A DNA stretch of 64,000 nucleotides, from assembly GCA_027605045.1 (NCBI GenBank), contig JAQFWX010000004.1, positions 1,498,683-1,562,682 on the forward strand, given 5' to 3'. Positions 10,952-60,079 of this stretch are shown one piece after another. The DNA is from Phallus indusiatus. Taxonomy: Eukaryota > Basidiomycota > Agaricomycetes > Phallales > Phallaceae. The translations under genes and the position numbers were made by a program. The notes below the pieces were generated by a model. The model ran no database searches. It saw only the letters and a list, made by a program, of their open reading frames with translations, and was not told where the DNA came from. Positions within the stretch are counted from its first letter, which is position 1; each line of letters begins with the position of its first letter.

Positions 10952-11192
10952 TTACCGATTAACAATTTCATGTTCGAGTGATTGGAAATACAACATTCTA
11001 GAGTCTTCTTTGGTGTCCAGGTCTAAACCTTCACGTCTCCATGTTTTACGGCCAAGTTGAGTATTATATAGGTGGCCTGATGCTGCTCGCAATTCGCCGA
11101 GAGCTAAAAACTGAGATACGCCAAGGTCACCAACGTACCCAACCTTTCCATACCGAATTCTTCAATAGATAGTCCATATAGGTCTATAACAG
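10952..11192 (-). CDS. Coding-like extension downstream of TAF8, one frame away
   Basis: Past the apparent TAF8 stop, the minus strand stays open in the neighbouring frame through VTIAVIDLYGLSIEEF. A 50 nt GTATGG...TTTTTAG intron then leads to ALGELRAASGHLYNTQLG and LEHEIVNR, stopping at 10952-10954. It has no start codon of its own. One additional base near 11200 (for example in the GG of RKRW) would make it the C-terminus of TAF8. This is the same one-base deficit seen in other genes of the window. I do not recognise a separate family in it. It is either the true TAF8 tail or an unassigned exon. Confidence 0.5.
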
Positions 11193-12189
11193 CTATCGTA
11201 ACTTCCAGCGTTTTCTGTCGGCACTCTGAGTACTTTTCCAATTTACGACACCACTTGCAAGTTCTAAATCACCCTTTCCCGAAACTTCTTCCGTGGCTTT
11301 CACTAGATGTCGAAGCGCTTGTTGAACCTTAGTGGCATTGTCGAGCTTTCTGTCGAGAGATGGTGCTTTGATTCGTTTTAACGTAGCAGGCTGGAAAGAT
11401 TACGTTAAAAGGGAACGGGCTTAGAAGAAAAATGAGACCGCATACGGCTGTATGAAGATAGGTATGCTTTGGCGGAAGAGAAGGCAAATAATCTGGAAGG
11501 TCTTGAAGGGTTTGAGGTAGAATGACTGGGACTGGAGGCGCGTCCTCCTCGTCAGACGGTAGAATATCAGGCGAAGGCTCTCTGGGAGGTGGAGAAACAA
11601 GTCTCGTCGACGGAGGAGGTTCTGAAATAGCACAATTCAATGTCATATAGCAGTAGAAAATGTGTTTATGGCTAGACCTTGTTTTCTTTTGCGCTTCTTA
11701 CTGGCTTTTCGAAGTTGCTCGGCCGTCAAACCATGGGTTTCGCAAACAGTGAATACGTCGTACACCATTGGCGTGGCTCGATTGCACAGTGTTGCTGCCT
11801 CTTTAGCATGCCTTAATAATGTTATCATGACTGGCAAAAAATTTGCAAAGGCTGAGTACACTATGGAGCCATGAAATTAGCGTGAAATACGCACACGCCA
11901 CAACCTCATTTTCGAATCTTTCCAAGGTATGACGTTCGTATGACTTGAAGCCAGCATTTCTCAATTGGGCCGCAAGTAAACGACGCATGGTTTGAGAAGC
12001 CACTGAAGCAGTTATTGTGGACGGCTGAACAACAGGCAGTGGTGCCTGGGGCGGTTCTGGAGGAATTGGAGGTGGAACGGCATAATAAGCACTGTAATCT
12101 GGATATGCATAAGGTGCGGGAGAGTATTGGTATTGCAATGGGACAGTAGGAATTGGCGGCGGCGCGTAGTTGTAGTTGTAAGATGTCAT
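11193..12189 (-). CDS. TAF8: TFIID subunit TAF8
   Basis: Histone-fold subunit of the general transcription factor TFIID, pairing with TAF10. The start ATG at 12187-12189 lies in good context and opens a Tyr/Pro-rich N-terminus (MTSYNYNYAPPPIPTVPLQ). The histone fold reads RRLLAAQLRNAGFKSYERHT, then FENEVVAFANFLPVMITLL after an intron, then CNRATPMVYDVFTVCETHGL. A KKRKRK basic patch leads to EPPPSTRLVSPPPREPSPDI and the TAF8 C-terminal signature LPPKHTYLHT, then KAPSLDRKLDNATKVQQALR. In the sequence as given it stops after RKRWKLR at 11193; a frame break may truncate it (see the segment at 10952-11192). Confidence 0.85.
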
Positions 12190-12285
12190 TGTTGTTCTTG
12201 CAAGAGAGTAATTATTATTAGTCAGCAATATTAACCAACCCATAAATAGACTCTATTGGAGGCTCTACTATATACAATGCAGGTT

Positions 12286-13009
12286 TCATTGCTGAAAGAA
12301 TGAATCATTCAAGAAAACACTATATGCTGGTCTATCTAAGGATTTGATTCCAACGCGTTTGTCTGTTTCGATGTCTTCTATCAGTGCTTCTGGGAAAGAC
12401 GAGGATATCAGATTCAGTAGGCTACAAGAAAATTCCTAGTGCTCACCTCGAGAGACATAATCCAATTCAGGTCTTATATATCCAAGAATAATAGCTCTGA
12501 GAGGCTGGCCGTAGAAGTCGGACGGATAATCATGCATGATATGAATTTCCTATCAATGGGTGGCTTGAATTTAGATTTTGAGGGCGATGTATGCGATGAA
12601 CTCTTACGGCAGAAATATTCCTGTTTTTGTAGAAGGGGTTCCGACCTAAGCTCATAACCATAGGCCTGATTTTGGAATCTTCCTTTGTCCAAGTGGCAGA
12701 GTCGTTTATCGGTAAAACTTGTGCATATCCGTAATATATACCGGGATCGGAAACGGCAGTCAACGTATCCAAAGAATCTTCAGACATATTCGCTGCAAAA
12801 AATTTCAATCCGAGGCTTTGGAAGATAAAGGTAAAGACCTACTAACCGGTTGGACAATTGAGATCTTTCCCCCCTCTGCCAAAACCCCGCTGGACTGTGC
12901 CAGCTAATCGTATAGGAAAGGGTGGACTTGGACCTGCATCGTCGCCGACAACAAGCGGTCTTGAGTCTCTGTACGTCTTTGACGACTGGGCAACAGCCTC
13001 TTCCCCCAT
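12286..13009 (-). CDS. FMN1: Riboflavin kinase
   Basis: Phosphorylates riboflavin to FMN, the first step of flavin cofactor synthesis. The start ATG at 13007-13009 gives [18 protein letters not shown]. The flavokinase barrel is clear: [99 protein letters not shown] and DIETDKR. The PTAN motif that binds ATP/Mg is rebuilt across an intron. Monofunctional, with no FAD synthetase domain, as in other fungi. It is divergent from the DUF2423 gene, with 204 bp between start codons. Confidence 0.92.
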
Positions 13010-13213
13010 GTGAGTTTTAGAACGAGTCAGAAAGATAAAGAGACGGTGATTTCACGGTGCCGAAAGATGCCTTCGCGGGAATGGGATGACTAAGCTCTAA
13101 TATTGGATCTTTTTTTTTTACACAAGTTTACACTCTTCCTTTTCGACACTCACCAAAGCTCAAGTATCCTTTTTCTCCATCTCTCTAATTTGTTATATAT
13201 CTCATTATTTACA

Positions 13214-13840: not shown

Positions 13841-13940
13841 ATAATACCCTGTGTCAATGTAGTATTTAGTTAAAACAAAAAAAGGTGTCATTGATTTGAT
13901 CGTGTCGTGAAACTGCTTTTAGAGTGTTCGATGTTCAATT

Positions 13941-14022
13941 GACCTCTTAGCTCAGTGGTAGAGCGTGAGATTCCAGACTAGGAACCTCCTCAAGGTCGTC
14001 CGTTCAATCCGGGCAGGGGTCA
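13941..14022 (+). tRNA. tRNA, probably Trp (CCA), with a short intron
   Basis: An 82 nt gene folds as a cloverleaf. The acceptor stem is gacctct with aggggtc. The D arm is gctcagtggtagagc. The T arm is gtccg-ttcaatc-cgggc, and the discriminator is A. The anticodon arm is 10 nt longer than normal, which fits an intron after position 37. The loop starts TT, so the anticodon reads CCA, tryptophan. The anticodon stem tgaga/cctca has one A-C mismatch. A T-run follows at 14023-14032, as expected of a Pol III terminator. Confidence 0.72.
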
Positions 14023-14034
14023 TACTTTTTTCTT
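14023..14034 (+). terminator. Pol III T-tract terminator of the tRNA gene
   Basis: The bases tacttttttctt directly follow the tRNA 3' end. A run of T on the sense strand is the usual RNA polymerase III stop signal. Confidence 0.6.
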
Positions 14035-14245
14035 CCTCGTCTTATTTTATATTTTTCTTCGACAGGGATCTATAATTATCGACAATTACAGTGTGATTTT
14101 TGGGGTGGCTACTCCTATGCGGCTACATGCGTGAAACACGTTTCCATTCGCTGTCTATATGTACGCAATAATATCTTATAAATACCCTTGAGTGAGACAA
14201 TGAGCGCTGGCCCAGCTTTGCAGCAGGTGACTTCTACGCACCGCT

Positions 14246-14981: not shown

Positions 14982-15050
14982 TCTCCTCTTTCGAATCCTT
15001 TCATCGTTGATGCTATTGTGTATTATTACGTGAATATATACTGTATACTT

Positions 15051-16236
15051 TTACTCGAACAATTCTTCTGGGAAATCTCCTTCATCTAAATCTTTTGGCT
15101 GTTGACAAGGTGAATATCACCCCTTCGATTCAGGGCTATTATGATCTCACCTCTTTTGGCTCTTCGTCTTCCCCAAACTGAAGTATATGGTCGATATGAC
15201 TCAGTGCATTTTCTAAGGAGTCCGTATTGGTTAAGTCAAGAGGTAAGAATTGCACTAGCGGATGATCTTCGATCTAAATCGAGATTAGGGGTCTAGATCT
15301 TGAGAAGACGTTGAGATTAACAAACCAGCTGGACAATAGCTTTGTTGAGTGTATGGAACCGTGAATTGCTATTATCCACTTCGTTTCCACCGAGTAATAT
15401 CATGGGGTCTGGATCCAGATAACTGCGTCTGTTCAGTCCATGGTCATAGCCTTTTCGGAAGGTATAGTTACCGTGCAATGTCGCGTTTTTTTCGTAACCC
15501 GTTCCTAGCCGCATTGGGATCGTCAGGATCTCCTCCACCAGTCACGAGATCCATTTTTGAAAGGATATTAATCCATGGAATTGATAAATTAACCATCGCG
15601 GACATAGCAGACAGCACACCGCTTGGCGGGAAACGCTTCAGCATACACATATTCCCCTTTTCCTGATGAATGACCTACCTGAAAAATTTGTACCGGTCTT
15701 CAATAAATTGAGACTCTACTAAATATACGGCGCATGTTCGGAATCCGAGATGATCTAGATGTTTCACTAACGACGGAAGTAGGGGGTGGTGTGTGTATAA
15801 CTCAATCTGACCTGAAACCATGAGCGATATATACAATCACGAAAGAAACGATGAAGCTTTTCTTACCGGGACAATCTATTAAAATGTAATCACTTTCATA
15901 CTCTCCCAATTCCTCGTCTAGCCAATCAAGGTTTTCAAGAAGGTATCTAATGTTTGGGAGTAAGAGACAGGGGCTCAACCAACAACGAAGAAATGCTTAC
16001 TCAAAACAATAGACGAGACCACCATTTGGGCCATAGTCCAACTCAGTCATGACATCTTCCAAGCTTATAAGCTGCTTTATGTCGATTGATGGTTCATATT
16101 CAAAGCGCTCCGCCGCTGGGTCGAGGTTCATCAAATGAGCTGTCCGATGCGATACTTGAAGATGTGTTATCATGGAAGAACAAAATGTGCTCTTTCCACT
16201 TCCAGCGGGGCCAGTGACAAATATTGCATGTCGCAT
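15051..16236 (-). CDS. GPN3: GPN-loop GTPase 3
   Basis: GPN GTPases (Npa3/Gpn1-3) help assemble and import RNA polymerase II. The start ATG at 16234-16236 gives [20 protein letters not shown] with the Walker A motif. [19 protein letters not shown], then LGPNGG-type sequence ([13 protein letters not shown]), provides the Gly-Pro-Asn loop. [20 protein letters not shown] is the switch II region. [20 protein letters not shown] and LSKMDLVTG provide the base-recognition region. The last exon reads [15 protein letters not shown]. Introns of about 50 nt separate all blocks. It is divergent from the PYM gene with 121 bp between start codons. Confidence 0.93.
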
Positions 16237-16357
16237 ATTCGTGGTGGGATGAGGGTGGCAAAAGACGCGGACGTGAGCTTATTATACTCGGTAAAGTCCG
16301 CCAGTGTCGGAGGCTTTGCCTTTTTGCCACCAATTCATCACATTCAGAGAACCAACA

Positions 16358-16891
16358 ATGTCGCTACCCGATCTTTTCCCAAGAAAACTAATGCTGGAAT
16401 TATTGTAAATCCAAATACCCTCACCAGAGTCGTTCCCGAGTCAAGACGTGCAGATGGAAGGTACGCCACAGCTATATTATGATCTCACGTGTCGGCGATC
16501 TTATCGAATTCAACATGATAGCGTTCGAAAAGAACTCAAAATTCGGCCAGGGTTCACGCCACAAGAGGACATAGGACGTTTCAAAACTTCGCGGCAAATA
16601 CAAAGGGAACAGAATGCTCTTCCGAAGGGTCATATCGTAGGATGGGTGCCACCAGAATCGGGCGCAGGCGCGAGCACGAGTGAAGGGCCCAAAAACCCAG
16701 ATAAGCCCAGTAAGAGCGCGAAGAAAAGTCAAAAGAAGAAGGAGAAGAAAGAAAAGGACAAGTTGGACTTGATTGCCGCAAGTTGGGAGGAGGATGTTCC
16801 CAAACCTGCGAAGACAAAGAAGACAGAGGAACCGAAGGATGACGATAAGGATGATGAACTCAATACAAAGTTAGATGCATTGAAAATCTAG
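16358..16891 (+). CDS. PYM (partner of Y14-Mago / WIBG) homologue, apparent one-base frame break
   Basis: PYM binds Mago-Y14, removes exon junction complexes from mRNA and contacts ribosomes in the cytoplasm. The conserved N-terminal motif is clear: GIIVNPNTLTRVVPESRRAD, then across an intron VRKELKIRPGFTPQEDIGRF. KGHIVGWVPP, a Lys-rich helix and the C-terminal DELNTKLDALKI motif follow. The natural ATG at 16358 begins MSLPDLFPRK but is one base out of frame with the conserved part. An extra A in the A4 run at 16384-16387 would join them. The only in-frame upstream ATG (about 16249) would start 13 bp from the GPN3 start, which is unlikely. Confidence 0.8.
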
Positions 16892-16981
16892 GTAAGGTAT
16901 TAAGGTATACATGGTTATTTATTTCCGTGGTATTAATCAAGAATATCATTGTAGATATGAACGGGAACTCATTTCCACGAT

Positions 16982-18132
16982 TCACTTCATCTGATCTTCA
17001 GCGTCGAGTTGAGCATTATGTGGAGGCACTTGGGAGGCGCTTTCTTGTTTTACAGGCGGTGGTTTTGATCTCGAAGACAAACCGCTCGCCTCTAAACCAA
17101 TAACAAGGAAGAGGGCGAACATGCCCAAATACACTATGTGTTTCAAATTTATTTGGTCTTCTTTTTCTTTCGATATGCTTAATATTTTGGGACTTACCAA
17201 CTGCTTGCCGCATATTGTCCCATTTCACCTTTTCCATGTCGGTCCTTAGATCACCTAGAGTAACGATACTCTTGTTGAGTAACTCCTGTAGATCCGTGAT
17301 CAATACCATGTATTCATTCTACGTGAATGGGGCATCCTACCTCTACCGTGATGTCTTGATCTTTCAAATCAGCTCGGGCTCATTCTTCCGATTGTCCACT
17401 TCCATTTGCATCCTGTTATGATAACAACGATAAATGTGACCCTCATTAAGACTACCCAAATAGGAATACACTCATGCTTCAAGGTCTGTATGTCCTCTTT
17501 TATTTTTCCGTCCAGGGCGTCGACATCTCTTCGTAAAGCAGCTAGCGATGCTTGGAGGTTGGCAGCCTCGCTCTGTGTGCTCATTGTAGCCTCGGCACGA
17601 AGCTCAGACAAAGCGGCACGAAAAAGATACGCTTGCTTGACAAAGGTCAACAGTGAATTATGCTTCCCCAAGACATGTAACTCACATTCTCCAAGTCCTC
17701 CTCCGTTAGGGCCTCCCGTTTAACTCGCCCAATACGATCTGCCAGCAAGGCTCTAGTTGCCCGCATGAGTTGTCCGGCGACGGGGGTTGGGAATGTCCGC
17801 TCAAGAGCGACGAAAAAGGCATGTGTATGAAAAGGAGGGTTAGTTAATGCACCATTTGAAGGTGCTGTTGGGGCTGTTTGCGGCGGTAAAGGAAGGGAGT
17901 GAGAATGCGATTCTGAGTCAGATCCAGGTTGAGCTTGGTCGTCATGTTGGTCTGCTGGTGGTGGCGGAGGCGGAGCTGCGATGTGCAGCGTTCTGAACGT
18001 CGCGGAAAGAGCGGCCTGGGAGATAGATGGCGGCTGCGAGGAAGACTCCGACGAATAATATCTGATAAATAACTGTGATCGCAGTGCCCTTTTATTGCAG
18101 TGGTGAAGACATTGTCGAGCTAGGCGGCGCAT
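16982..18132 (-). CDS. DUF1640 (MCUR1/CCDC90-like) mitochondrial inner-membrane coiled-coil protein
   Basis: The family includes animal MCUR1/CCDC90B and yeast Fmp32, with roles proposed in calcium uptake or cytochrome oxidase biogenesis. The start ATG at 18130-18132 gives a leader ([20 protein letters not shown]). A Pro-rich linker follows, then [20 protein letters not shown] and [21 protein letters not shown] coiled coil follows ([20 protein letters not shown]) and [20 protein letters not shown]. The C-terminal membrane segment is [19 protein letters not shown]. Near 17377-17381 the exon reads RKNEPELI then stop; one extra base restores the expected [17 protein letters not shown]. Start codons of this gene and the gamma-tubulin gene are 56 bp apart. 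Confidence 0.82.
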
Positions 18133-18188
18133 TAAAGCATTCTGGAGTGGTGGCGCTGGTGAGTTTCGTCCACAAACACCCACGCGTC

Positions 18189-21100
18189 ATGTCCTCCGAT
18201 CATTTAACCATTCCCCGCCCCGCCTCCAGTTTATCTTCCTCCAGATCGATTTCAAGAGCATCCCAGAGGCCGGTCTCGCGTTTTTCTCAGTATTCTGTCA
18301 CCAAACAAGCACGCGTAACGCCATGGCTAAAATTGCTCATTAAACAAGTCACCCACCTCGACGAGGAGCAAAGTCCGGAGGACTTTCAAGATGCTTTGGC
18401 CATTGCCGTCAAGCGCATCGACCAGTTGATACAGTCGTCTCCAGCGGATACGTCGCAAGTTGATGCACAGATACATGGTCGCGTCGAAAAGGCACGCATA
18501 AATGTGCAAAACATTTTGGCTGATACCCTTCAAAAGACCTATTCAAAACTGAGAGAATATAAAGATCCATCCACTAGCGCGGTCACAACATCAACTACCA
18601 TATCTGGTATCGTTGAATTCCTCGTCAGTATACTTATGTTGTCTTCATTCGCACGTCGCTGAGCGTGTTCAGCTGCATCTTTCTTCTGCACCAGACGCGT
18701 CGACACTGACTTATGCCCAATATATCCTACAAAGACAAGAATTACCAGACTCGCAATCCGAACTCACGTGGGCACAAATATTGAGTGAAGAACCATTTGA
18801 AGGCCAACACTGGCAAGGTGCTTATGGTCTTCCACCTCACAGTACCGTCGAGACTTGGGACAGTGAAGGTTCAGAAATGGACTTGTCAACAGGAGAAAGT
18901 GATGAATTCGAATTCGATGCATCCTTTTCCATAGACGAAAGCTCTAACGAAAGCAGTCCTCAACAGATTTCAGACAGCACTTCGCATACTTCTCTCTGTT
19001 CCCGAGATCAGTCTCTGAGAAACAGGGTTGTTACTGAGAACCTAAACGATCTTCAGTATTGGAGTAAAGGTGGTTCTCAGTATTCATGGGACTTGCAGTT
19101 TGATTTTAATCAACCGTGGACGTTGGGTAAATGTACCGCTTCCTGATTCGGAGCGAAGTGACTGAACGGGGACTACAGGACCTACTTCGGACAAGATATT
19201 TAAAGATCCTTCTACCTTGGAGAAGAATATTGTTGGTTTATTAAGTTCGCTATCCTTCAGAGCAGCTATCAATTTACATTAGATACCCATGAAAGAATTG
19301 GACGTTATCAGAGAAGTTCTGTTCCTTCTCCAGGGTTTGCCAAGTATATTATTCAAATATGACGCAGATATTATCAAAGTAAGGCTAATTGTTTCTCTAA
19401 CTATTTCTGCTCATCTATCACAGATTGAGACTCATTGGCGCATACATCATCTTACGCTTTCGGCCCAAACATCCATTTTGAACACATTTGCAACATTGGC
19501 GACTGTAATGTCACTTCGGTCCTTTGAATTGGTTGCTAAATCTGATCACTCCCCGACATTTCAAGCTTTCCTGGCAGGGATATTTCACCAACTTCGGCAA
19601 TTCGATATATGGTGTTCAAACATTGAAACTCAAATAAGCACAAAAGCTTTGCCGCGCACAGACTCTGCGATTGAAGTTATCAGTTTGTTACAATTGCAAT
19701 ATCAAGTCGAGAAACGGACGTCTCACACGTTCCATGATCTTTTGGGGTTGATTCGCGCGTGGCAGTCTCGGCCAACAACGTCTAGATATCCATCTCAAAT
19801 CATAAATATGCTGTGGAAATGTCTTCGAGAACGACAGACACTGCAGGACGCAGTAACTGCGCAAGCCTTATGGGAAGTTTTGAGGACGACTGCGGAACCT
19901 CTTTGGTTGAACCTCGGCCGGTGGTTAAAGGACGGCATCCCTATTGATCTGGGATTAGAAGAAGGAGAATCCAAATCAAATCCTACTTGGAATGTTGAGG
20001 AAATGTTTATCCGCATTAATCCGTTGATTGATGCTGCCGCACCCGATTTTTGGGAAGCTAAATATACCTTGAAAAGGATCCCAGCACATGCTGAAAATGC
20101 AGAAGATCCTGTCCCCTTATTTCTCACAAGTTATGCCAATGATATTTTGGCTGCTGGGAAAGCGGTAGGACTCATCCGTGCTATGGGGTTATACCATTTT
20201 TGGAACCTGGCTGGATCCAATCTTGGAACACGTTCGAGGTTGTAACAAATGGTATTCTGAGCCTCGAGGTAGAACTTCACTTGAGGGAAAAACTCTCCGA
20301 AATATTTACAGCGCCTTGTCAACGAGCTCAATCCACCCTTTCTCGAGTTTTAATTCACGAGATTCACTTATGGAAACATCTTCAAAATATTGAAACTATT
20401 TGTCTGACTACGAAAGGAGACCTGATGGATCAATTCGCTGAACAATTATGCAGTAAAGTATGTTTCCTTTCCCTCATGCCTTTCTTTTCTTTTTTCCTCA
20501 TTTTTTCTCATAGATGGATTCACCACGCTTTGTCTGGCATGACTATCACTTTATGAATGCTGCTTTTCGAAGCATAGCAAAGACAGATCCACTCCTAACC
20601 CTTCATTAGTAACGTTCAGCTATAAAACAGCCAGAGACCGGAAGTCAGACCGCACTGTCGAGGCTATAGAAGGCCTCACAGTCGAATATGCTGTTCCTTT
20701 CCCTCTCGTTTATCTTTTCGGATCAGAAAGCAGCATGTGTTATTCTCAGCTGTTTTGCTTTCTTTTACAGATTCGACGCGCGAAATTCGTTTTAGATCAG
20801 ATTTCTTTGAACAAAGTGAACATTCAATTCTCAAAACAAAGACCTTTCTTGGTGACGTTTTATCTTATCCGGTGGAAATTATCGTGGTTTATAAAGTGAA
20901 TATTCCTTTCTTCCAAATTTCGGCAATAATAATAACACGAAACGGCTTTCTAGCGTTCTTTCGACTTTCATCAAGATGCATGTAAGACGTTTACACTATT
21001 CCCGAAGCACTGGCTGATGGTTGTATTTCAAAGGTCATCGACGTTGCTATCCGAGAATTGCACAAATCTCTTCTCGGTGCCACTTCGTTAGATGAAATGA

Positions 21101-21649
21101 TAAGTTTTCATCAAATGCATCTCGAGCGCCTTTTACATCGCTTATTTCTTCAAGAAAATGTAAGTGAAACGTCGGGATTGTCATCAGATTTATTAATTTA
21201 TTTGACATACAGACATCTGCTCTTCATCGGGCCATACTGGCAGTATTGGACCTTGCCCTACGACTCAACGACTGTTTAATGCCCCATCAGCCAACGACAC
21301 GGACTTTATCCGCTCTTCAGACCTTTTTAAAAGCTCTCTATCAAAACGCTCGTTTCGTCCTAACCGTAAAAAGCCAGACGTCATAGGTTTTGTTGAGAGT
21401 CTTCAAGGACACACAACCGACGGGGATGAATCAGAAGAGGACGAGAACAATCTCGAGGAAACTGGTTTTGATAATTCTGAATTTATCAATGATGAAAGCA
21501 ATGTTTTTGAGCAAATGGAGTATATCAGTACAAGAATGGCGAAGTTGATAGATCTTGTACGACGCGAAGTGCAAAGTCTGGCCAGTGGGGTTACGGACGC
21601 TTCCGAGACGTTCGAAATTCTGGCATTTTTATTAGAGGGAGAGGTGTAA
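18189..21649 (+). CDS. Gamma-tubulin complex component, Spc97/Spc98 family (GCP5-like), three frame breaks
   Basis: Part of the gamma-tubulin complex that nucleates microtubules at spindle pole bodies. Starts MSSDHLTIPRPASSLSSSRS at the ATG at 18189. GCP features are LTYAQYILQRQELPDSQSEL, YGLPPHSTVETWDSEGSE, IPMKELDVIREVLFLLQGLP, LTLSAQTSILNTFATLATVM and DPVPLFLTSYANDILAAGKA. The grip-2 part is split by three sites, each needing one extra base: the T5 run at 20197-20201 (before GWIQSWNTF), A3 at 20579-20581 (before STPNPSLVTFSY), and T3 at 21275-21277 (before NAPSANDTDFIR). The end is FEILAFLLEGEV. GCP5 rather than GCP4/6 is a judgement from spacing and the ETWDSEGSE block. Confidence 0.82.
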
Positions 21650-21881
21650 TATGACCAGTAAACAGAAGTCAATACATAGATGCTTGATACATAAAACAGG
21701 AGTCTCAAGACGGAATGGTACTGAAATAGTTACATATATGCTTTTCAGAAAGGCTCAGATTTGATATGATTTTAACTTTGTGATGGGGGTGGTGTTTTAT
21801 GATTGTGGAAAGCGCACTGATACAACTAATATGAGATACAATACCTGAGAATACCGATAAATATGTATGTAAATTGTGTGC

Positions 21882-23038
21882 TCAGTTGTCCCAAGTTATA
21901 CGATCCACTCTTCGATTGATTCCTCCAAGAAGGATTTTGCCTAATAGGTCGGGATTCATGGCTTGACCTGTGTAAAGGGTTGTATCGACCATATCACGAA
22001 CGTTATATTCGACACTGAGATCATTGTCCAATTCTCTTAATGCTTCTGTTGCCCGCGGATCAGCGCCCAATTGAACGAATTGAATGCCTACTTGGGACTA
22101 TATATGCGCGTATATAAGATAAATTGAATGCATATTAATTTATAACGAGCACGTACTAGAGGGGCATGTTGAGCATCCAGTCTTCTTGCTGCAGTCACGA
22201 TGACGCTCAAAGGATCATCAGCTTCAGGGAAAAAAGTTTAGTTGACTTTTGTCGCCAAATTGTGAAAAATGACGACTCCTTACAAGGCGCACCATCGGTC
22301 AAAACTAAGAAGCTGACCGGTTTAGGTTTTGGTTCGGCTCCTTCGTATTTGGATAAGTAATCTAGGAGTAATTCTTCGAGTTTCTCTCCGGTAGGTGTGA
22401 TTCCTTCAGGATGCACGGAATCGAATATCCGTTCAACTTCGGCTGCGCTCTTCTCTCAAATTAGCAAACAGAAAAATGCAGTCAAAATTGTAACTTGTAA
22501 TACTCACTCTCAAATTTGTTCCCGTCACCCTCGAATTCAAGAAATAGAGATCAATGCCGTTAGTGTCGTATCGAGCGGCTAGAGCTGCAATTCCGGCTAA
22601 AGCATATTTAGCTTCGAACCATAATGCCCCTTCCATTGAGCTGGAATCGTCTACAACGATAACTGTATCAAATTTTCGAAGGAGTTCAAGTTGATCTTCT
22701 CGGTCAGATAACGACACTGAGTTGTTACGGTTCGCTCGTCTAGTTGTTGTCGTTTGAGAGTTTTGAGATTGACGTGTAGAAGAGCGATACAAATTTGTAG
22801 GTGATGAATCATCAATAGTATCGACAGGAGAAGCGGGTTGTAGACCATGATAACGCTGACTTGAGACTGAGAGCCGACTAGGGCGTCGAGAAGGCGACAA
22901 GGTTGTGTCACCACCGTATATACTATATGGGGGAGGTGAATCACTCTGTATTAAGGAGAGAGGTCTCTGTCTTGAAGGGGTATGAGACAGGGTACGAGAC
23001 GGAGCTTGGGAAGGGGAATGAGAAGGAGTATTTCCCAT
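21882..23038 (-). CDS. VWA-domain protein with N-myristoylation-type start
   Basis: Protein with a von Willebrand A domain; the fungal family has no settled function. Starts MGNTPSHSPSQAPSRTLS at 23038. Gly2 and Ser6 match the N-myristoyltransferase consensus, so membrane attachment is likely. The first 110 residues are Ser/Pro/Thr-rich and disordered. The VWA fold starts DTVIVVDDSSSMEG, a MIDAS DxSxS variant, then KYALAGIAALAARYDTNGID, HPEGITPTGEKLEELLLDY, FLVLTDGAP and SQVGIQFVQLGADPRATEAL. It ends NRRVDRITWDN. A (TG)10 tract lies 5 bp upstream of the ATG. It is convergent with the gamma-tubulin complex gene. Confidence 0.8.
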
Positions 23039-23400
23039 TGCTTGTGTGTGTGTGTGTGTGTGAAGGAGGTAAAAGTGGAAATCAGGAAACGAAGGGGAAA
23101 ATGAAATTAATATACTTTTCAGGGAGATAACAAAGCGGTGTGCACTCGAAAAGATTTGGCACTGTGCATTGAGGTTTCTCGAGGCTGTGAGAGTGGATTA
23201 TGAATCATATATATTAGGACTCGAGGCTGCCATGGGACTGCATTAGAGGCACTGTCATGGATGGTCCTTGTTCGGTCTGACTGCGGCACCGAAGCGCCGA
23301 GTATTCAAGAAAGTCATGCTCTGCTATGATGTCGTGTGGGCGGATTACCTACAATATCATCGCGTGACTATTACGTAATGAACGCGTACCACGTCCGCAC
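23039..23400. promoter_or_regulatory. Divergent promoter between the VWA and Cdt2-like genes
   Basis: This 362 bp region separates two start codons that face away from each other. It holds the (TG)10 tract next to the VWA gene and a tatatatt element near 23207-23214. I see no coding sequence in it. Confidence 0.5.
23043..23062. repeat. (TG)10 microsatellite
   Basis: Ten TG units sit 5 bp upstream of the VWA gene start codon. On the transcribed strand this is a CA tract in the 5' leader. Confidence 0.9.
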
Positions 23401-25390
23401 ATGTCTACTAATCCCATACGACGCGCATTTTTCGACCGCACCAATGTCAATACGGACACACAGAAACAAGTTCCATCGCGCAGGAAACTCGATGAAAATT
23501 CTTTGAGTTCCAACAAACGTCTCAAACACGCCGACTCTACAGCGATACCTCCGACGAAGAAACGCTTCCAGGATATTACCAACGTTACAAATTTAGAAAG
23601 CTAAAGCTTAATAAGAAACCGGGTTACCGTTCGAATATAGTGTCATCTCCTCGTAATTTACCATTCATTATTCGAGTAATGCACTGAACTGACGATTTCT
23701 TTGCAGTCTCTTCGCGATCAATTTTAACATCCCTCGTATCATCACAAAAGTCCGACAGATACTGCCTTCATTTACGCGACGATAACAGTGCTCTTGCGAT
23801 ACCCTTTTCTTGCGCATTCTCAAAAGGTATGCTTTGCAGATGTTAGGATTTAACTCGTTACCTTATATCATCTTTTCCAAGGTGCCAAACACGGGAAATC
23901 ATCATTACTTTCAATAGGAACACAGGATGGCACAATTGAAGTCCTAGATGTCAGAGCGAGGTTAGACTGGGAGCAGGTCTGTTTATCAGTTTTTTAACAC
24001 AGCCGCTTTTGATTCTATCACCATCAAACAGAACCTCAAAGATCTATTCTACGAATACATGATAGTGCAATTTTTGGTCTGCAATACCGATACGACGACG
24101 AATATATCGTATGACGTCAATTACCTTTCTTCTACGCCTTATCTCACTTACATGCTTTGATAAGGCGACCGCATCTCACGATTCAACTTGTCGAATAACA
24201 TCATTATCAACCCAGCAATGCACAGCCGTCCTGAGTGGTCATGTCGGTCCCGTCAAAACTATAGACTGGATTTCAAATCATAATAGTATGAGGTTCTCCA
24301 TTTGGAAAATCGACCGGTGATCTAAAAATTTTTTTAGGTTTACTATGTACCGGTGGGCGAGACGGCTCTGTTCTTGTGTGGGATATACGGTGTACGAACG
24401 GCGGCTCTGATGGTAAGCACTACATTCATGTTAGAGAGCGTAGGATGACAAGACGGCTGGCAGCTATATCACCCGTTTGCAAGATACAGGACGCGCACGC
24501 AGAGACTACGTCGGCAGGGAAAAAGAAAAAGGTACTTTTGAATGTCGGAACGTGTCATGCTATCTCGAATGTCCTCTTAATTTTCTTTTTAGACAACGAG
24601 CCTTAGAAGTATCACTTCCGTGGTGGCTGTTCCGGGAACGTTACAAATAATCTCCAGCTCGTCGTCCGACGCGTGAGTTCATATTACAATCGGAAGACAA
24701 ATCCTAATTGACTTCGATCTCTTCTCAAGGAAGCTACATCATTGGGATTGCCGATTCATCAACGATGATTTCTCGGTGACAGAGCTTGGAGGAAGTCTTG
24801 ATGATCCAACACTTGCCAATAGTTCCCGAAGTAGAGGGGTATCTGGTTTGGCTCTGGGCTCCAACCTAACAGCTGGCTATCTCTGGAGCATTGCGGCAGA
24901 TTCACGGTAAAGCATTTCTAGCTCCCATAATCCCACTACTGAAGTCCCTGGAAAAAGTATCCATAGGTATACAATTCCCCTCAGCGCACCATCATTATAT
25001 CAGCCAAAGGCACTATCGCATCCGAATCTGAAAGTCCAATCATTCCATGTCAAGTTAGCTACGAGTCCATGTGGTCGGTGGCTAGCCAGTGGTAGTTCTA
25101 ACGGTGGAACGTATGTTTGGGATATAAATGATCCTTCATCATCAGCCGCAGTTGAGTTGATTTCGTCGACAAAGGAGGTCGGACCTTTGGATTGGGGACA
25201 TAATATGGTGAGAAATTAATTTTTGTTTTCGTTCGCTTCCAGACATGAAGGTTTATAAATCAACTAGCTCGCCACATGTTGTGATGATGGAATCGTGAGA
25301 ATTTGGAGGCCCAATCTCGAGGTGGTATCTCAATGTAAAGCGAACCCGGAGGAAGAGAGTTGGAATTGGTTTTGGAGTAAAGGTTCATAG
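23401..25390 (+). CDS. WD40 protein, Cdt2/DTL-like CRL4 substrate receptor, apparent frame break
   Basis: Cdt2 recruits PCNA-bound substrates to the CRL4 ubiquitin ligase. The N-terminus (MSTNPIRRAFFDRTNVNTDT) ends in RFQDITN. A one-base deficit at the A3 run 23597-23599 separates it from KPGYRSNIVSSPRNLPF, which is in the next frame. Blades follow in many small exons: SIGTQDGTIEVLDVR, ATASHDSTCRI, CTAVLSGHVGPVKTIDW, LCTGGRDGSVLVWDIR, LRSITSVVAVPGTLQIISSS, WLASGSSNGGTYVWDIND and LATCCDDGIVRIWRPN, ending WNWFWSKGS. The RSITSVV block between two WDxR blades supports Cdt2; another WD40 scaffold cannot be excluded. Confidence 0.68.
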
Positions 25391-26628: not shown

Positions 26629-26831
26629 TCTCATATTTTCTAAGAACTCAAAGAGACACAGCATTATTGTTCAGTTGTTCAATTAATTATTTGAATTTTG
26701 TTCCCAAATAACAACCCAAAATCTTAAAAAGACATGTACGACACCAGTGCCAAGTAATTTTCCGCGTTCGCACTTTTCGGAGATCTGGCTATGGATGCAT
26801 GTGGGTCCAGACAGACGATCTTTAGGATGGC

Positions 26832-27558
26832 ATGTCTGTTCATCTTTTCATCCTTTCGCCGGTGGATTCACCGCTGTATAGCATAACGATTCCATCCTCA
26901 AAATCAGCCAGTCAGCAATTACCACTTTCGTCGAATCTGCCAACATGGAGCACGTCGGCATTCGCTGGAACCCTCACAGCACTTTCTGGAGCGTCGTCCG
27001 TCATGCATCCAGGCGCGACGGCGACAGGACAAAGACAAATAGGCAGCGGAACAGACCGTGCAGTAGTCCAGATGATCGCTAATGCAAGTTTGGACGCAGT
27101 TGAAGAAACTATGAGACTGAATAACGCCATGTGAGCCTGACGAGACTCTCATTCGGCTTATTGCGTAAAAAGCATGACTAACCTGGGCGACCTTGAGGTA
27201 TTTGAAAGCAGTTGACAAATTCAATGAGTGGACGGTGTCTGCGTTCGTAACGCCTGGAAGTAAGTTTTGCCACTCAATAATACATGAGAATACTCTGGTA
27301 AATCCAGTGTCAAAGACATGAAATTTATTTTGCTACACGAGGCTAAGAACGAAGATGGCATTCGAGCCTTTTTCATGGACGTGTGGGAACTTTATGTCAA
27401 GGTCAGCTGTTGTTCAGGGTATATATATTTATTTACTCCACTTTCTGAAATGCTATGCATGTGCAGACGATGTTGAATCCCTTCCACACGGCGCACACCG
27501 CAATCAAAGCTCCGTATTTGATCTTCGGGTGCGTGCCAGTGCCCGAAAACATTTGTAA
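26832..27558 (+). CDS. TRAPPC2/Trs20 (sedlin), apparent one-base frame break near the end
   Basis: Core TRAPP subunit that links the complex for ER-Golgi traffic. The start ATG at 26832 gives MSVHLFILSPVDSPLYSITI, the longin-fold start, then MIANASLDAVEETMRLNNAM joined to YLKAVDKFNEWTVSAFVTPG. After the next intron comes MKFILLHEAKNEDGIRAFFM, then DVWELYVKTMLNPFHTAHT. The final strand VFDLRVRASARKHL is typical of sedlin. It is one base out of frame with the preceding AIK; one more A in the A3 run at 27506-27508 repairs it. It is longer than human sedlin because of a Ser/Gly-rich insertion after residue 25. Confidence 0.85.
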
Positions 27559-28052: not shown

Positions 28053-29531
28053 ATGGCCTCCTCCACCTCCAATCCGAGGGCATCTCTTCTCGCTGGCCTT
28101 CGCACCGGCGGCGTCCGCTCTGCTTCCCAGCCATTCCCCGCTCCGCACAGCACGGCCCCACTGAATGGCCAATTCAACATTCCTCGTGTTGTGTCTTCTG
28201 TCTATCCGAATTCTTATCCCGATGAAGAGGAGGAAATTGACCAACTCGCAGAGATGACCTCTCAGTTTACCTTCGAGCCTTACAACGATCATCAAGCTCC
28301 CCTAACAGCAAGCGCTATTGAATCCAACTTTCTCTTACAACAGCAACAGCAGCAACAACAACAGCAAATGCTTCTGAATCATATGGCTGCTCAACGTGCT
28401 GGTCTTACCGGGAATGTCTACAATGCCAATGGTCAACAAACTGATCTTAGGACCCAGATGATGCAAATGGAATTGCTCAAGTACCAGGTGAGAGAGAGAA
28501 AGAGAGTGGCGAGTTTACATGTGAAAGCTCAACGGTTTTTTTTTGCAGGTCATGCAACAGCAATCCCAATACCAGGCTGAATTCGCAGCTCAAGCGCAAG
28601 CGCAAGTTCAACGTCAACTGCAGTCCAACCAGTCGCACTACCCTCGTAACCTCGAACCTGTAACCGCTGCTCCAAACATTACATCCTTTGATCACCGTGC
28701 CAATGCTATCGCACAGCTTCGCGCCCGGCAATTGGAAAGGCTATCGATCCCCATGAACGACGAATTTATTTCGAGCCCTATTTCTGGTCCTATGACCGCC
28801 AGCATCGACGGTAAATTTGGCTCCCGCGCTCTTAACCCTCACGCTGCCTCTTTCATGAGCCGGTTTGGTGAGCAGGATGGATCGTTACTCTCGCCATTGC
28901 CGAGCGCATATCCTACCACTCCAAGTCGTACAACTGTGATTAGTGGTGGTACTTCTCTCGGATCCCCGGCCGTAGCTTCTCCTATGACACCTTCCAAATC
29001 TGATGCCGCTATCTCCTGGCGCAGAGGAGTTGCCTCGCCTGCTACGCCATCACGTGCTTCCCCAATAACAACAGGTTCCGCGCTCAGGTCCTTACGGGGT
29101 ATCTCCGAAGAAACCGGGAAGAGTCGTCCACAGCCCTTGAACCTTCACCAAGACAATTTCGAAGTCAACTCCAACGTACAATGCGACACAGTTAACGAGG
29201 ATGACCCTGCTTCAGGTTCCTCGAAAACAGGATCTCCCACATCCGCGAGCACTCCTGCTACGCCACCCCCGTCCAGCCTGTCTTGTCCACTGAGCCTAAG
29301 AAAAGCTACGAAAATCTGGGCGTTGGTCGACCCACTGTAGTCAATGTCGTCAACGCGCCGCGATTCGTAAGCCTGCCAAGCAGACAGCCTAAAGGGCCTC
29401 CTTCTGGCGCGGACGAGCTCGGACCTAGAAATTTTGCGAGTAGAATTAGGAGACAGGCGATCGGTGGTCTGGGTGCTCTCGTCAATGCTCGAGAACAACG
29501 AGAGTTGGCAGTGGAGGTACAAGCCTACTGA
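28053..29531 (+). CDS. Gln/Ser/Pro-rich protein of unknown function, apparent frame break
   Basis: I do not recognise a named domain. Starts MASSTSNPRASLLAGLRTGG at 28053. DEEEEIDQLAEMTSQFTFEP precedes a run of ten Gln. One intron (GTGAGA ... TTGCAG) joins LLKYQ to VMQQQSQYQAEFAAQ. A long Ser/Thr/Pro region with TPSR/TPSK repeats suggests proline-directed phosphorylation. After SASTPATP the frame shifts. One extra base in the CCACCCCC stretch at 29263-29270 leads into VQPVLSTEPKKSYENLGVGR, then a conserved-looking GPRNFASRIRRQAIGGLGAL and stop at 29531. Likely a regulator or RNA-related factor, but that is a guess. Confidence 0.6.
28338..28367 (+). repeat. CAA/CAG repeat coding for ten glutamines
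   Basis: Ten consecutive Gln codons, mixed CAA and CAG, lie inside the Gln-rich protein gene. Mixed codons make slippage less likely than in a pure tract. Confidence 0.9.
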
Positions 29532-33991: not shown

Positions 33992-36021
33992 ATGATTGAT
34001 AAACTTTCTTCTCTGGCCAAATTCAAGCGTGCTTGTCCCTTCCTGGGGCGCACGAAGATGAGTACACTCAGGACGCTCGCCACGTCTACCTCGTCTCGAG
34101 CACCCTCCATATCTCGTCTGACCGAGAAGGCGACCGAATGCCCTGTCATGGGTCCGGCTCTTGCCCTTCGCTCCTCTCAACTCGCTCATTCTACTAGGAA
34201 TTATGCGAGCGTGGCTCCTAACCACCCCCACCAGGAGGGTTTCTCTATCCCCCGCAGGGCGTTTGCCCCCACGCCAAAGCCGGTCAAGAAGCCGCCCGAA
34301 AGGCCGAAGCTCTCGCACAGCTCGTCAATTCAAACCGTGCTTCCAAAGCTTCGTCCGCTTCGACTTTCGGATATGAAGTGTTCTATGACGCTGAACTCGA
34401 CAAGAAGCACAAGGACAAGAGCTACCGCTACTTCAACAATATTAATCGACTTGCCGCCAAGTTTCCTGTCGCTCATACCACCAATTTTAAAGACGAAGTT
34501 GATGTCTGGTGCTCAAACGATTATCTCGGCATGAGCAAGAATCCAGTCGTCATGGATACTATGCAGTAAGTAGTGTTTCTGTCCAAAGTTTTGGAGCTCA
34601 AGTCTCACTTGATTCAACCCTCTCTTAGCCGCACCCTGAATAAATACGGTGCAGGTGCAGGTGGAACTCGTAACATCGCTGGCAATGGTGCCACTCACCT
34701 TGCTCTCGAGCAAGAGCTTGCATCACTGCACAGAAAGCCAGCAGCTCTTGTCTTCTCTTCTTGCTACGTCGCAAACGACGCAACTCTTTCCACTTTGGGA
34801 TCCAAGTTACCCGGATGCGTGATATTCTCCGATAATATGAATCACGCCTCCATGATTCAAGGCATTAGAAACTCACGCGCTGCAAAAGTCATTTTTAAAC
34901 ACAACGATATGCAAGACCTTGAGGCGAAGTTGAAACAATATCCCAAGGATACCCCAAAGATTATCGCCTTCGAAAGTGTTTACTCTATGTGCGGTAGCAT
35001 AGGTCCTATTGCCGAAATATGTGATTTAGCCGAAGAATATGGCGCTATTACTTTCCTTGACGAGGTACGTTTATTTTTATCCGAGTTAATTTTGTGTATT
35101 TCCGTCGATTGATCCATGATTTTCAAAAAGGTTCATGCTGTTGGCATGTATGGTCCACGTGGTGCTGGTGTCGCTGAACATCTTGATTTCGAAACTCACC
35201 TTCGTGCTGGACAAAGCGCCGAGCCAATCAAAGGAACTGTAATGGACAGAGTCGATATCATCACTGGCACTCTTGGAAAAGCTTATGGTGTTGTTGGAGG
35301 CTACATCGCTGGTTCCAATAACTTGGTCGATATGATTCGCTCTTACGCTCCCGGTTTTATCTTTACGACTTCACTCCCTCCCGTCATTGCTGCTGGTGCC
35401 CAGGCTAGTATTGCGTATCAAATGCGTTATATGGGTGACCGTAGACTGCAGCAATTGAACACTCGCGAACTCAAACGTCAACTTGAAACCAAGGATATTC
35501 CCGTCGTTCCCGGTCCTTCTCACATTGTCCCTGTCTTAGTCGGAGATGCTGCCTTGGCAAAAGCTGCTTCTGATTCTCTCCTTTCAGACCACGGTATTTA
35601 CGTTCAAAGCATTAACTATCCTACGGTTGCCGTTGGAGAAGAACGTCTCAGGATTACCCCTACCCCCGGTCATACTGCAGAACAACTGTCTAAGATTATC
35701 AATGCTGTCGATGAAGTTTTCACTCGGCTCGGTATTCGTCGTAAAAGCGAATGGGTCCGACTTGGTGGACGCGCTGGTGTGGGAATAGGCAAAGATGTTG
35801 TCGAACCCCTCTGGACTGACGAGCAACTTGGCTTGAACGATAATACTGCACCGGTTATGCTCTCTCAAGGTGCTAAAGCTGTCGTGGATATTAAAGCAGT
35901 GAAGCAGGCTCAAGATATCATCGATAAGCTTCTTGGAACCGCAGTTAAACCAATTATCATCTCGGCCAAGGTAGCACTGGATTATTCAATCCGACTGCGA
36001 TTCATGCCCCCAAGGCCGTAG
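33992..36021 (+). CDS. HEM1: 5-aminolevulinate synthase, mitochondrial, apparent frame break in leader
   Basis: Condenses glycine and succinyl-CoA, the first step of heme synthesis in the matrix. The start ATG at 33992 gives [20 protein letters not shown]. Heme-regulatory CP motifs lie at Cys15-Pro16 and Cys50-Pro51 (ECPVMG). Near 34249-34253 (C5) one extra base is needed to continue into [20 protein letters not shown], a third CP motif, and [20 protein letters not shown]. The catalytic domain is intact: [60 protein letters not shown], and the PLP Lys in [19 protein letters not shown]. The last 20 residues may also be shifted. Two clear introns. Confidence 0.92.
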
Positions 36022-36313
36022 TTACCATGGCTTAACAAGTAGTATTTTGTTTTTGAAAGTTTTGAAATATTTTATATGTTGTAGTTACCTTGTTTCATTA
36101 TTACAAAGACTACACGACCACGTTTGCTCTATTCGCGTCCAGTGGTCCAATACTTGTTCGCCATACTGTGACACTAGCGCGCGTGTCATGATTCCGCCTC
36201 TGCCTTAAATGGTAACCCTGAACAGCTAGTCATCGCCTTAGATCGAAACTTCAGTTCTTCTAAATTTCTGCTTAAACAATCTTCGTTATCGTTCACTCTC
36301 TTCTTCCTACGTC

Positions 36314-44178: not shown

Positions 44179-45277
44179 TTAAAGCTTGGCCTTGAGTTCA
44201 GGATCGACAGCGCTGCGAGCAACATCGCCAATCTGGTCGATGGTTTCAATAACCCATTCGACACCTTCATCACTCACAAGCCACCGATCCCCTTCAGTCA
44301 CCTTCTCTCCTTGATACTCATCTATGTTGGATTTCAACAAGCCAAATACATGGCTTGTCAGCTGAGGTCCTACGCCAGTTTCCGTACGGAGACAGGCGAC
44401 GCCCACAATAGAGCCAACAGTTCGACTGAGATTGCCGGGACCATAGCCCGGATCACCTTTAAACCAGGGACTGAATACAGCACCATAACTAGTAGTGATG
44501 AAAGCTGACAAAAAAAAATCCATAAATGGTATAATTCAATTTAAATATCAAACATACCCATGAAATCGGGGTGATAGCTGGCAAGCTTGTTAGCTAGCTT
44601 GACGTCATGTGGAGCATAAATATGTTCCCATAGTGCCCGACCACGACGAGAAAATTCTTCAATGTTCTCGACGTTAGCAGCTCTAAAATAGTTTCAATAG
44701 GGTGTGATGGGCAATTTGAATTCGTTTTCACTTGCCTCAAAGGCTCCTTACGGAGGGAAGATTTGACGTCATCCTCCAAAGCTGTTGAAAGACCCTCAAG
44801 ACTTAATATAACCTTGATTTCATATCAAATGTTAATTGATTAAAGAGACAGATTATTAGCACATTAAAACTCACGCGGGGCACACCGACGAAGATCGTAG
44901 ATTTTAAAGCGGCTTCTCTCATCAAAGCTGCTTGCGCCGTCCTTTCTTGGGTTGAGAGAAGACTTGCTGCGCTGTCAGATAAAGGCTCGCGACGAGATAC
45001 ATATCGGTATAGATGGGCTACGGCCGATGGAACATTTGCAGTCAAGAGAGTGGACGTCTAAAGCAACACAGCCAGAAGGCAACTTGAGATTTCACAAAAA
45101 AACACCGAGCACTCCGATACATACCGCGAGTGCAAGCCAACCGTCACGAGCATTGTGCTGTTCAGCCTTGCGCAAAGTGAGCGTAAACACGCCATGCAAT
45201 TTCTCCCAAGACGGAGATGGATTTGCTTGCGGCCTACGCAATGTCAACAATTGCTTGACGGCAGCAGGCAATTTCAT
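44179..45277 (-). CDS. AhpD-like / carboxymuconolactone-decarboxylase-fold protein
   Basis: All-helical AhpD-like fold, known from peroxidase and decarboxylase enzymes; the fungal group is uncharacterised. The start ATG at 45275-45277 gives MKLPAAVKQLLTLRRPQANP. Exons then give VPSAVAHLYRYVSRREPLSD, RTAQAALMREAALKSTIFVG, LEDDVKSSLRKEPLRQ, EHIYAPHDVKLANKL (in the frame at 44570-44630) and FITTSYGAVFSPWFKGDPGY. SIVGVACLRTETGVGPQLTS and a final helix ending VDPELKAKL complete it. No CxxC of true AhpD is visible, so peroxidase activity is doubtful. Tandem with the GH128 gene, 277 bp apart. Confidence 0.7.
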
Positions 45278-56733: not shown

Positions 56734-58882
56734 GATCCGAAGCCGAAGTTGAAGCTGGAGAGTCGGACTCCGATTCGTCGGCACCCGCAACTGAGATCGG
56801 TTTATACTTCCGCGTCTTTGACAGACCAGGGACTGGTGTTTGTCAGCTGTGGTTTTGAATTCACTCTCCAATCACTCTGTGTTTTTTGTATGTCAGAAAC
56901 CCGAAAACGCACAAGAAGTATTTCTGGAGAACTGGTATTACTCATAATCTCTTCTGGTTTGGCTGATTTGTGGTTGCTGATGATACACACTTTCACGCTT
57001 ACTAGGAATCTGATGGTGATTATGAGGACGACAACCATACAATACCGGAGGACGGACAGGCTGGTCGACCGGGGAGAAAGAGAAAGTCCAAGTAAGTTGT
57101 AACCTTATTTGTCCATGTCTCGATCAAAAACTCTTGCCAACAATTCCGTGATAGCTCCCAGGCTGCGAGAAGAGATCAGAACCGTATAGCCCAAAGAGAG
57201 TTCCGGCTTCGAAAACAGCAACGGGTTCGTATCTGATTACGTCCCTATAGTTATCATCATGTAACTCTTAGTTCTGTTCTTTTGCATAGATCCGTGATCT
57301 CGAAGCTCGCGTTGAACTTCTTTCCGGGAGCAAAGACGAGACCTACCTTCAAATGCGTGACATCATTCGAGGTCCCACATAGATCGTCCTCTTCTCAAGC
57401 TTTTGCTGAATTCACTGACATTTATATATTATATTATAGAGTTGATTTCTGAGAATTACACTCTTCGTACTCTTGTCCGCAACCTCAGCAATTTCATCGG
57501 CGAAGGTGCTGGCGGTGTGCTTCCTACCTTAGGATGGACACTGGAAGAATTCGACACGTTCATCAAGAAAGCCGACACCGATACTGCTTTCGAAGCGTTC
57601 ATGAAACATCGAAAAACTAACATGGGAGGGTTGAAATCTCAGTTAATTAACACTGATAACAATCATGTCGAGCAAGACCAGAACAGGAATCAACAAGCCT
57701 CAAGCTCTAATTCCGCTCAGGTCGATAGACACGAACGGACCGACAGTCTGCCTAGTAATAATAATAGTCTTCACTATCCAACAGCTGGTGCTACTCCTGG
57801 TTATACCTCTCCTTCTGTGTATTCCCCGCAATCACTATCCATCTTGTCAGGTATACGAGGGTCTTTCAACTCGCCTTTCATGAACGGACTTCCAGTCCAT
57901 ACCACCTCCCCAACTAATGGTTATCCCAGCCCGTCCTTTGACTTTTCGCCTCAACCTCCTCCATCTCAACCTCACCCCCAACCCCAACCACAGCCTCAGT
58001 CTCAGTCTCAGTCTCAACCTCAACCTCAGCCTCAGCCTCAAACGCAAAATCTGTCGCCAACACAACCAACACAACCACAACCGTCAATGAGAATCTCTGA
58101 CAGCCAAAGGAGTATCTCTTCATTTCAGGCTCCAACTCCTTCGTCTTCACACCACGTAGCAAACCCGTTGTCAGGTGTATCCTTCCCATCTTCAACTGAT
58201 GCAGACAACTTAGCAAACCATGCCTTTGGTGCGCCAGCTGTCCAGGATGCATGCAAACTTATCTCGTTGGTTTTCGTTTTTGCTTCAAAGAGACATTAGA
58301 TGTTTAACGTCTCGCTTGAACCTACCGGACAGATATCATTTGGAACATTTCCGTCGTAATTCGGCGTATTGCCTACCATTGTCTCTTCGGCCAACTCTTA
58401 TTCAGCGGACGGTAGATCATGGTACATTTTTTTCTTAAAATACATTCTGAGCTTCGATTCAACTTTCCATTTGTTGTGTCTAGACAGACTTATTGACGGT
58501 ATCCCCCATTCTGAGATACGGAACCGTATGATTTTATTTAAAGGTATATCGTTCTGTGTCTTTTTCATTCTCAAGGAGGATGATTCATCATAATCAAGAT
58601 CGGTTCAACTTGATCGATTGTGTTCAAAAGTATTTGAAATGCACCGATATTCACGGGGACGATGTTTTGGATCATACCAATTGGGAAATACACGATATCT
58701 GGTTAAAAGAATTCGGGCATGTTCATTTCTTTCATGTTAATTGTAGGTTATCTTTAAAAGAATTCTCTTTTTACAGGTTTCTTGTCGATCCGATTACCTT
58801 GGGAATTGTGAATCGTTGGCGAAAGGAACGCGGCGAACGCGAGGTAACAATGGCAGAAACATGTCCGAGTGGGCACATTTAA
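56734..58882 (+). CDS. bZIP transcription factor with C-terminal DUF3425 (5' end unresolved)
   Basis: AP-1-like fungal regulator. The start is not settled: the first supportable exon (from 56734) has no ATG in its splicing-compatible frame, so an upstream exon is missing. Clear exons: ESDGDYEDDNHTIPEDGQ, then the basic region NSQAARRDQNRIAQREFRLR with NxxAQREFR, and the zipper IRDLEARVELLSGSKDETYL followed by ELISENYTLRTLVRNLSNFI. The middle is Ser/Pro/Gln-rich with PQPQ/SQSQ repeats. DUF3425 at the end: RNSAYCLPLSLRPTLIQRTV, DRLIDGIPHSEIRNRMILFK, FNLIDCVQKYLKCTDIHGDD and FLVDPITLGIVNRWRKERGE. Stop at 58880-58882. Confidence 0.78.
57961..58044 (+). repeat. PQ/SQ dipeptide-coding repeat in the bZIP gene
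   Basis: About 14 units of CCT-CAA/CAG and TCT-CAG code for alternating Pro-Gln and Ser-Gln. This resembles Gln-rich activation regions. Confidence 0.85.
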
Positions 58883-59092
58883 AATATGGGAGCTGTTGGA
58901 CACGTGCCCAGGAGATCTATTACCGTGCCACTAGCCATATATATATACTACTACTACTAATATATATATTCTGTATCTGTATTACTGCATTTGTGCTACT
59001 GTTATTAAGGTCACCGTCACCGTTCGTTGGCAAACATGTTGTTAGTGCGTCGCCAAAATGGTTCGCGTCTCCACACCAAACTTTTAGTGATA

Positions 59093-59465
59093 TCACCAGG
59101 ATGCTTTTCGAACGCCAGGTAACTCGTTGTTTAGTGCTTTTAGTCGGAATTGAAACTAAAAAACACGGAGGGTGAATAAAGGATGAAAAAAATAAGGAAA
59201 GCAGGCAGGAGGCACAAATACGTACACGACATAGCCCAAATTCACTGATAATACCTCTTCCACGACCGGATTCAGTACATCGATTTTTAACCGTCGTTGG
59301 ACGAGTATATCGACCGAATGTGTTCAATTGTAATTGAGCCTGGTATCGGACTTGAGCGGGTAAGGACTCGTTTCTGGCAACGAAAAGATAGGCTCTCCGC
59401 AGTATTTCATTTTCGGCTACCCCTTTGCGGGCTTTCATGTCTCTGAGAATACGTATTTTCGTCAT
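59093..59465 (-). CDS. Mitochondrial small-subunit ribosomal protein uS14m
   Basis: Component of the mitochondrial 37S subunit (yeast Mrp2). The start is the ATG at 59463-59465 (MTKIRILRDMKARKGVAENE), the usual family N-terminus. The longer in-frame start about 90 bp upstream adds non-conserved sequence. ILRRAYLFVARNESLPAQVR, YQAQLQLNTFGRYTRPTTVK and NRCTESGRGRGIISEFGLCR follow. The intron (GTACGT ... TTTTAG) leads to FQFRLKALNNELPGVRKASW, then stop at 59093. About 100 residues, normal. Start codon 119 bp from the divergent gene at 59585. Confidence 0.92.
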
Positions 59466-59584
59466 GGTTTGTAAGATAGAGTGCGAATGACAAGGGTTCG
59501 CCGGTTTAGTGGGTCGCTGGGCGGAGTTTGAACAATGTGGATGGTTGGCATCCATCGCTTTTTCTTCATCCGTGTTCCGTTAGA

Positions 59585-60079
59585 ATGGGTTTATGGTAAG
59601 TTTTATCTGTCTCTGTCGTGGATGATATTAACGTTAAACCGTGAATAGAACATACCCAGCATCCCGATTAGACATAAGAAGAAGAAAAAACAGACGAAGC
59701 AAAAACGGAGCAGACATTATACCAAGCACAAAAGACATATGCCTTCACCCTGGCATTTCCGGGTCACAACACGGCAACAGCGTTCAGTAGTAACTCTTTA
59801 TTTGGAGTAACATTTTTGGCCTCGATAGTAACAGTTGTCGCGTCAACGATCATTCCATGTCCTGCCCGACAAAATAATAGAGGTCGTTGGCTCGAATACG
59901 CCGACGGAAGGAGCGGTAGCAGCAGCAGTGCGTCCTCCTCGGCCGCCACTGATATTTCTCTTCCTAAGAGACCGAGGAAGTGGATAGAGGAGAAGTTACC
60001 CCAAACATCATCAATATCGCTGTCGTCGTCATCGTCACCACCATCATCATCGTCATCAAATGGATCATTCACATCGTGA
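59585..60079 (+). CDS. Small membrane protein with Ser-rich tail, apparent frame break
   Basis: Family not recognised. Exon 1 (MGLC, 59585-59595) splices at 59660 into IPIRHKKKKK. The A6 run at 59685-59690 then lacks one base relative to the open frame TDEAKTEQTLYQAQKTYAFT, LAFPGHNTATAFSSNSLFGV and FLASIVTVVASTIIPC. That last part is a single hydrophobic segment, followed by PARQNNRGRWLEYADGR, a Ser run, LPKRPRKWIEEKLPQTSS and a Ser-rich end at 60079. Gly2-Cys4 is a myristoyl/palmitoyl-type start. The acidic frame on the opposite strand here is a shadow of the Ser codons. Moderate trust in the first exon. Confidence 0.5.

Follow-up and report, generated by a model that had tools for sequence, protein, structure and literature searches.

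The window analysed here is a stretch of 64,000 nucleotides (C140:1498683-1562682) of a basidiomycete assembly of 67.2 Mb in 206 contigs, the largest of which reaches 3.4 Mb. On its plus strand lies a gene for the gamma-tubulin complex component GCP5/Mod21 (18192..21649), which is interrupted near 20197-20201, 20579-20581 and 21275-21277, with one base short at each place. At the first of these, the frames of three relatives, P0121 (89% identical), P0122 (68%) and P0123 (41%), all continue across the break, and the end of residue 232 and the start of residue 233 of P0121 fall on the same base. For the other two, the pieces joined with X match the GCP_C_terminal profile (positions 1-251) over residues 57-319 with 93.8 bits, and the match covers both X (positions 106 and 288), whereas the best single frame scores only 31.5 bits. 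All three breaks had been proposed in a first-pass annotation, and these data bear them out. A further apparent frame change in the gene, near 18640 and of the opposite sense, was discarded as a break. It is best read as an intron, because the matches of the relatives start just downstream of it, in the downstream frame.

The 5-aminolevulinate synthase (ALAS) gene (34050..36034, plus strand) takes its name from the names that sources give to its relatives, which include those of Ceratobasidium and Serendipita. It is one base short near 34223-34253 and again near 35949. The second break was located with P0001 and P0002, in which the residues on either side are contiguous and none is missing. 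A weak site had been suggested at 35972; the break is real and of the suggested sense, but the two relatives place it near 35949. The first break, listed as a strong site at 34249-34253, is backed by coding signal on either side with a change of frame (12.4 and 6.8, at a penalty of -5). These values come from a coding model built for this analysis, with states for splicing and for frameshifts, which makes many false calls and was used for leads only. The model locates this break at 34223, and does so at the laxer penalty only.

Three more of the proposed breaks, each one base short, were accepted. The TRAPPC2/sedlin gene (26830..27547, plus strand), recognized by a Sedlin_N match, is broken near 27506-27508; when its exon pieces are linked through X, the alignment to sedlin (PDB 1h3q) extends up to the C-terminal end. 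The CCDC90-like gene (PF07798; 17196..17832, minus strand) is broken near 17377. Its domain scores 146 bits when joined and 104.9 bits when cut at the break, and the coding-model call at this site falls below the filter. In a gene without a name (28053..29530, plus strand), the break proposed at 29263-29270 lies near 29263-29275, with coding log-odds of 13.4 and 11.4 on either side and a change of frame between them.

Two other sites, also on the plus strand and one base short, were accepted, although as probable rather than strong breaks as they had been listed. One lies near 16384-16387 in a gene (16358..16891; frames mod 2 then mod 1) that is presumably PYM/WIBG-like, with a Mago-bind match (E 0.035) below the cut-off. 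The other lies near 23597-23599 in the 5' part of a WD-repeat gene (23401..23850; frames mod 1 then mod 0) that we take to be CDT2-like, with a WD40 match below the cut-off. Both are called because the sole suitable ATG belongs to the frame that precedes the break. A new break outside the earlier list, near 44677 in a gene without a name (44550..44800, minus strand), was found by the coding model, passed vetting and is likewise one base short. No relative was seen for 16384, 23597 or 44677. The remaining two proposals were not accepted. In a COA2-like frame (59678..60076, plus strand; match E 0.0013, below the cut-off), the upstream frame at the supposed break at 59685-59690 contains stops and is ambiguous, and the site is doubtful. 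The weak site near 11200, in a gene that we assume to be TAF8-like (11190..11888, minus strand), was rejected: an ordinary intron together with a natural stop accounts for the frames. Of the twelve sites originally claimed (ten strong, two weak), ten are thus accepted, and of the nine genes claimed, seven contain an accepted break, to which one new gene is added.

The case of 11200 raises the question of whether the other genes, too, are unbroken and merely shifted in frame by unrecognized introns. Introns are common, at a length of about 50 bases, and they explain the apparent breaks at 18640, 11648, 11200 and, elsewhere, L043:5868; such introns, together with the named relatives Ceratobasidium and Serendipita, also mark the genome as that of a basidiomycete. 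A GT-AG segment that restores the frame without loss of residues was found at 18640 and 11200, but not at 20197 or 35949. At these two sites the contiguous residues of the relatives refute the explanation, since excision cannot add an absent base without losing residues. As a general account of the breaks, introns are therefore very unlikely.

The window also contains a tRNA-Trp(CCA) at 13941-14022, whose intron is 10 bases long and whose anticodon stem has one mismatch. A bacterial-mode scan gave it a two-base anticodon, which suggested damage, but it folds as tRNA-Trp. Clustered tRNA matches are found on contigs C206 and C200, which are possibly organellar.

All 11 accepted breaks in the window are one base short, as the first-pass annotation had claimed for its own list (one-sided sign test, 0.0005, or 0.012 if losses are assumed to be twice as frequent). 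The size of one base is indicated by contiguous residues with a one-base shift at 20197 and 35949, by offsets of -1 at two sites elsewhere, and by one-base gaps in three pairs of broken and intact twins. The sense is the same outside the window, in CCT2, in HSP70, and in genes on C10 and C72 (the latter in L025). A run of at least three identical bases is present in 11 of the 11 site stretches, compared with 4.6 expected by chance, but this test is weak and partly circular, as the stretches were drawn around runs. The proposed homopolymer context is better supported by the three twin pairs. In the 8 kb from 16001 to 24000 there is no A/T run of seven or more, where about 6 to 7 would be expected from other loci; this is suggestive only, and may reflect under-calling or coding content.

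A uniform sense would also be compatible with programmed -1 ribosomal frameshifting, or with insertional RNA editing, restoring the frames. When the site stretches were extended by 12 bases at either end and scanned in any phase, XXXYYYZ heptamers were seen in two of the 11 (23597 and 34249) and were absent from the other nine. Three breaks fall in one gene, and the base in question is encoded in the DNA of relatives and of twins in the same genome, so that recoding of either kind is barely credible.

To place the window breaks in context, frame offsets were derived from the distances between neighbouring family matches in eight conserved families, chosen regardless of the window. Cpn60, HSP70, RPB2 and GCP contributed 47 gene copies or pieces, 56,646 bases and 89 junctions, and MCM, aminotransferase I/II, tRNA synthetase I and HSP90 contributed 32 copies or pieces, 21,996 bases and 35 junctions (in total 79 copies or pieces and 78.6 kb, with the GCP5 and ALAS matches of the window excluded). 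The survey joins matches up to 600 bases apart and misses breaks that leave too short a piece, so that it would miss those in GCP5 and ALAS, and its copies are partly near-identical twins and hence not independent. Among the 124 junctions, 118 are at least 40 bases, four are 37 or 38, two are -1 and none is +1. Both -1 breaks have intact twins.

The coding model gave a less uniform picture. At a penalty of -6 it called 11 losses and 2 insertions in 197.5 kb after filtering (17 and 5 unfiltered), some of them duplicates. For 60 kb elsewhere, raw losses and insertions stood at 7 to 7 at -6 and at 16 to 10 at -5; filtering left, in these 60 kb (27 kb of them called coding), 2 losses and 1 insertion, all in L048, and 2 and 2 at -5. 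The L048 cluster is repetitive and contains both senses. In an injection control, which used selected high-scoring positions only, the model recovered 37 of the 38 losses that had been introduced and 36 of the 39 insertions. A bias towards losses, which a wider count had been predicted to show, agrees with the survey (two short, none long) but is absent from the raw model calls elsewhere; raw calls run in both senses. Vetting by eye rejected the calls at 11648, 46948, 54632 and 33674 in the window, the last being antisense to a class-III aminotransferase, and L005:2234, L043:5868 and L055:9286 (= L041:877) elsewhere; L043:2612 was ambiguous, and the vetting left out L031:648, L045:443, the L048 cluster and additional calls made at the laxer penalty. 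Among the loci, L038 contains 1,489 N letters.

The window may be more densely broken than other parts of the assembly, and the defect may accordingly be locally concentrated rather than uniform. The window, in which the model calls about 31.5 kb coding, has 11 accepted breaks, and the 78.6 kb of the survey have two, but the methods differ. By the same method, vetted coding-model calls number three in the window and two in about 90 kb elsewhere (P 0.11 by chance), with several calls elsewhere lying outside the vetted set. Since all 11 breaks fall between 16 and 45 kb, one might think of a local segment decaying into pseudogenes. Decay would not be expected to produce a single sense and a single size, and it sits badly with a GCP5 stretch (19283-21660) that occurs as a single copy in the assembly and with open stretches of ALAS and GCP5 that are still 68-95% identical to relatives. 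In addition, the matches of the adjoining class-III aminotransferase lie in consecutive frames with intron-sized gaps (offsets determined by hand). Decay, which the first-pass annotation also regarded as unlikely, is highly improbable.

Evidence on the origin of the breaks also comes from genes outside the window that are present in the assembly both broken and intact. The CCT2 copy on C140, the contig of the window, is broken and shifts frame, while its twin on C204 stays open throughout and can be aligned to CCT subunit beta. Over 1,921 bases the two have no substitutions and one single-base difference in a short homopolymer, where the C140 copy is shorter. HSP70 on C113 is broken and one base short compared with its intact twin on C162, with no mismatches in 201 bases. 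A gene on C10 is broken and its twin on C189 reads through; these contigs differ by 127 mismatches in about 9.97 kb. In all three pairs a short homopolymer has one base fewer in the broken copy than in the intact one; in two of the three the compared stretch is free of substitutions.

Such pairs would also arise if the base were truly lost in one nucleus of a heterokaryon and intact copies in another nucleus complemented the defect. One nucleus would then accumulate null alleles of essential genes, with the other supplying the product. Parts of the genome are indeed found on two or three near-identical contigs (the triples being deduced from equal scores), as in a partly separated heterokaryon, while others, such as the GCP5 region of the window, are found once. 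The pairs L043/L044, L053/L054, L055/L056 and L057/L058 are 98.4-99.8% identical over about 10 kb, and the intact twins could be real alleles. Four 10-kb twin pairs contain 16 single-base indels, of which 14 fall within runs of at least three (read by eye from the contexts). Likewise 14 of the 16 are in called non-coding sequence, though about half of the sequence is called coding; this is the pattern expected of real polymorphism under selection, and the indels may be just that. The breaks called by the coding model in L043 recurred among its calls for the twin L044, though the best-examined one proved to be an intron. The indel pattern, the raw model calls elsewhere, the two slippery-type heptamers and the excess of insertions in a published nanopore fungus (PMC7500977) all leave unexplained the substitution-free twins of which one has a broken housekeeping gene. 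The GCP5 region of the window occurs without a twin, two of the broken twins show no substitution in the compared stretch, and every accepted loss is of a single base; nuclear complementation is unlikely.

We therefore conclude that the breaks are very probably consensus errors, in which the length of short homopolymers has been under-called by one in places. This reading, which the first-pass annotation had favoured, is supported by the common sense of all 11 accepted window sites, by the continuous frames of relatives at two of them, and by the three broken genes with intact twins elsewhere in the same assembly, and it gains from a family survey in which the only breaks are one base short. 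Under-calling in the consensus is the best fit, and it is a strong inference that we are dealing with a long-read assembly error rather than with new biology. Presumably, long noisy reads were assembled, the length of short homopolymers came out one base too low in places, and the frame was shifted as a result; the DNA molecules themselves would carry the base that is absent from the consensus, and long-read data with incomplete polishing would be the cause. For users of the assembly, this means that genes including those for a chaperonin and a heat-shock protein are truncated in the consensus, and that annotation, gene counts and pseudogene claims based on it need checking at the level of reads.

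Errors of this type have precedents. PMC8812927 and PMC12007338 describe homopolymer-length errors in long-read-only assemblies, in which single-base errors in runs fragment genes, as they appear to do here. A fungal parallel is the nanopore assembly of Drechmeria coniospora (PMC7500977), in which about one fifth of conserved genes were incorrect after long-read polishing. In that fungus insertions outnumbered deletions on polishing, while all accepted breaks in our window are losses; in both cases, conserved genes of a fungal genome appear to be broken by homopolymer errors.
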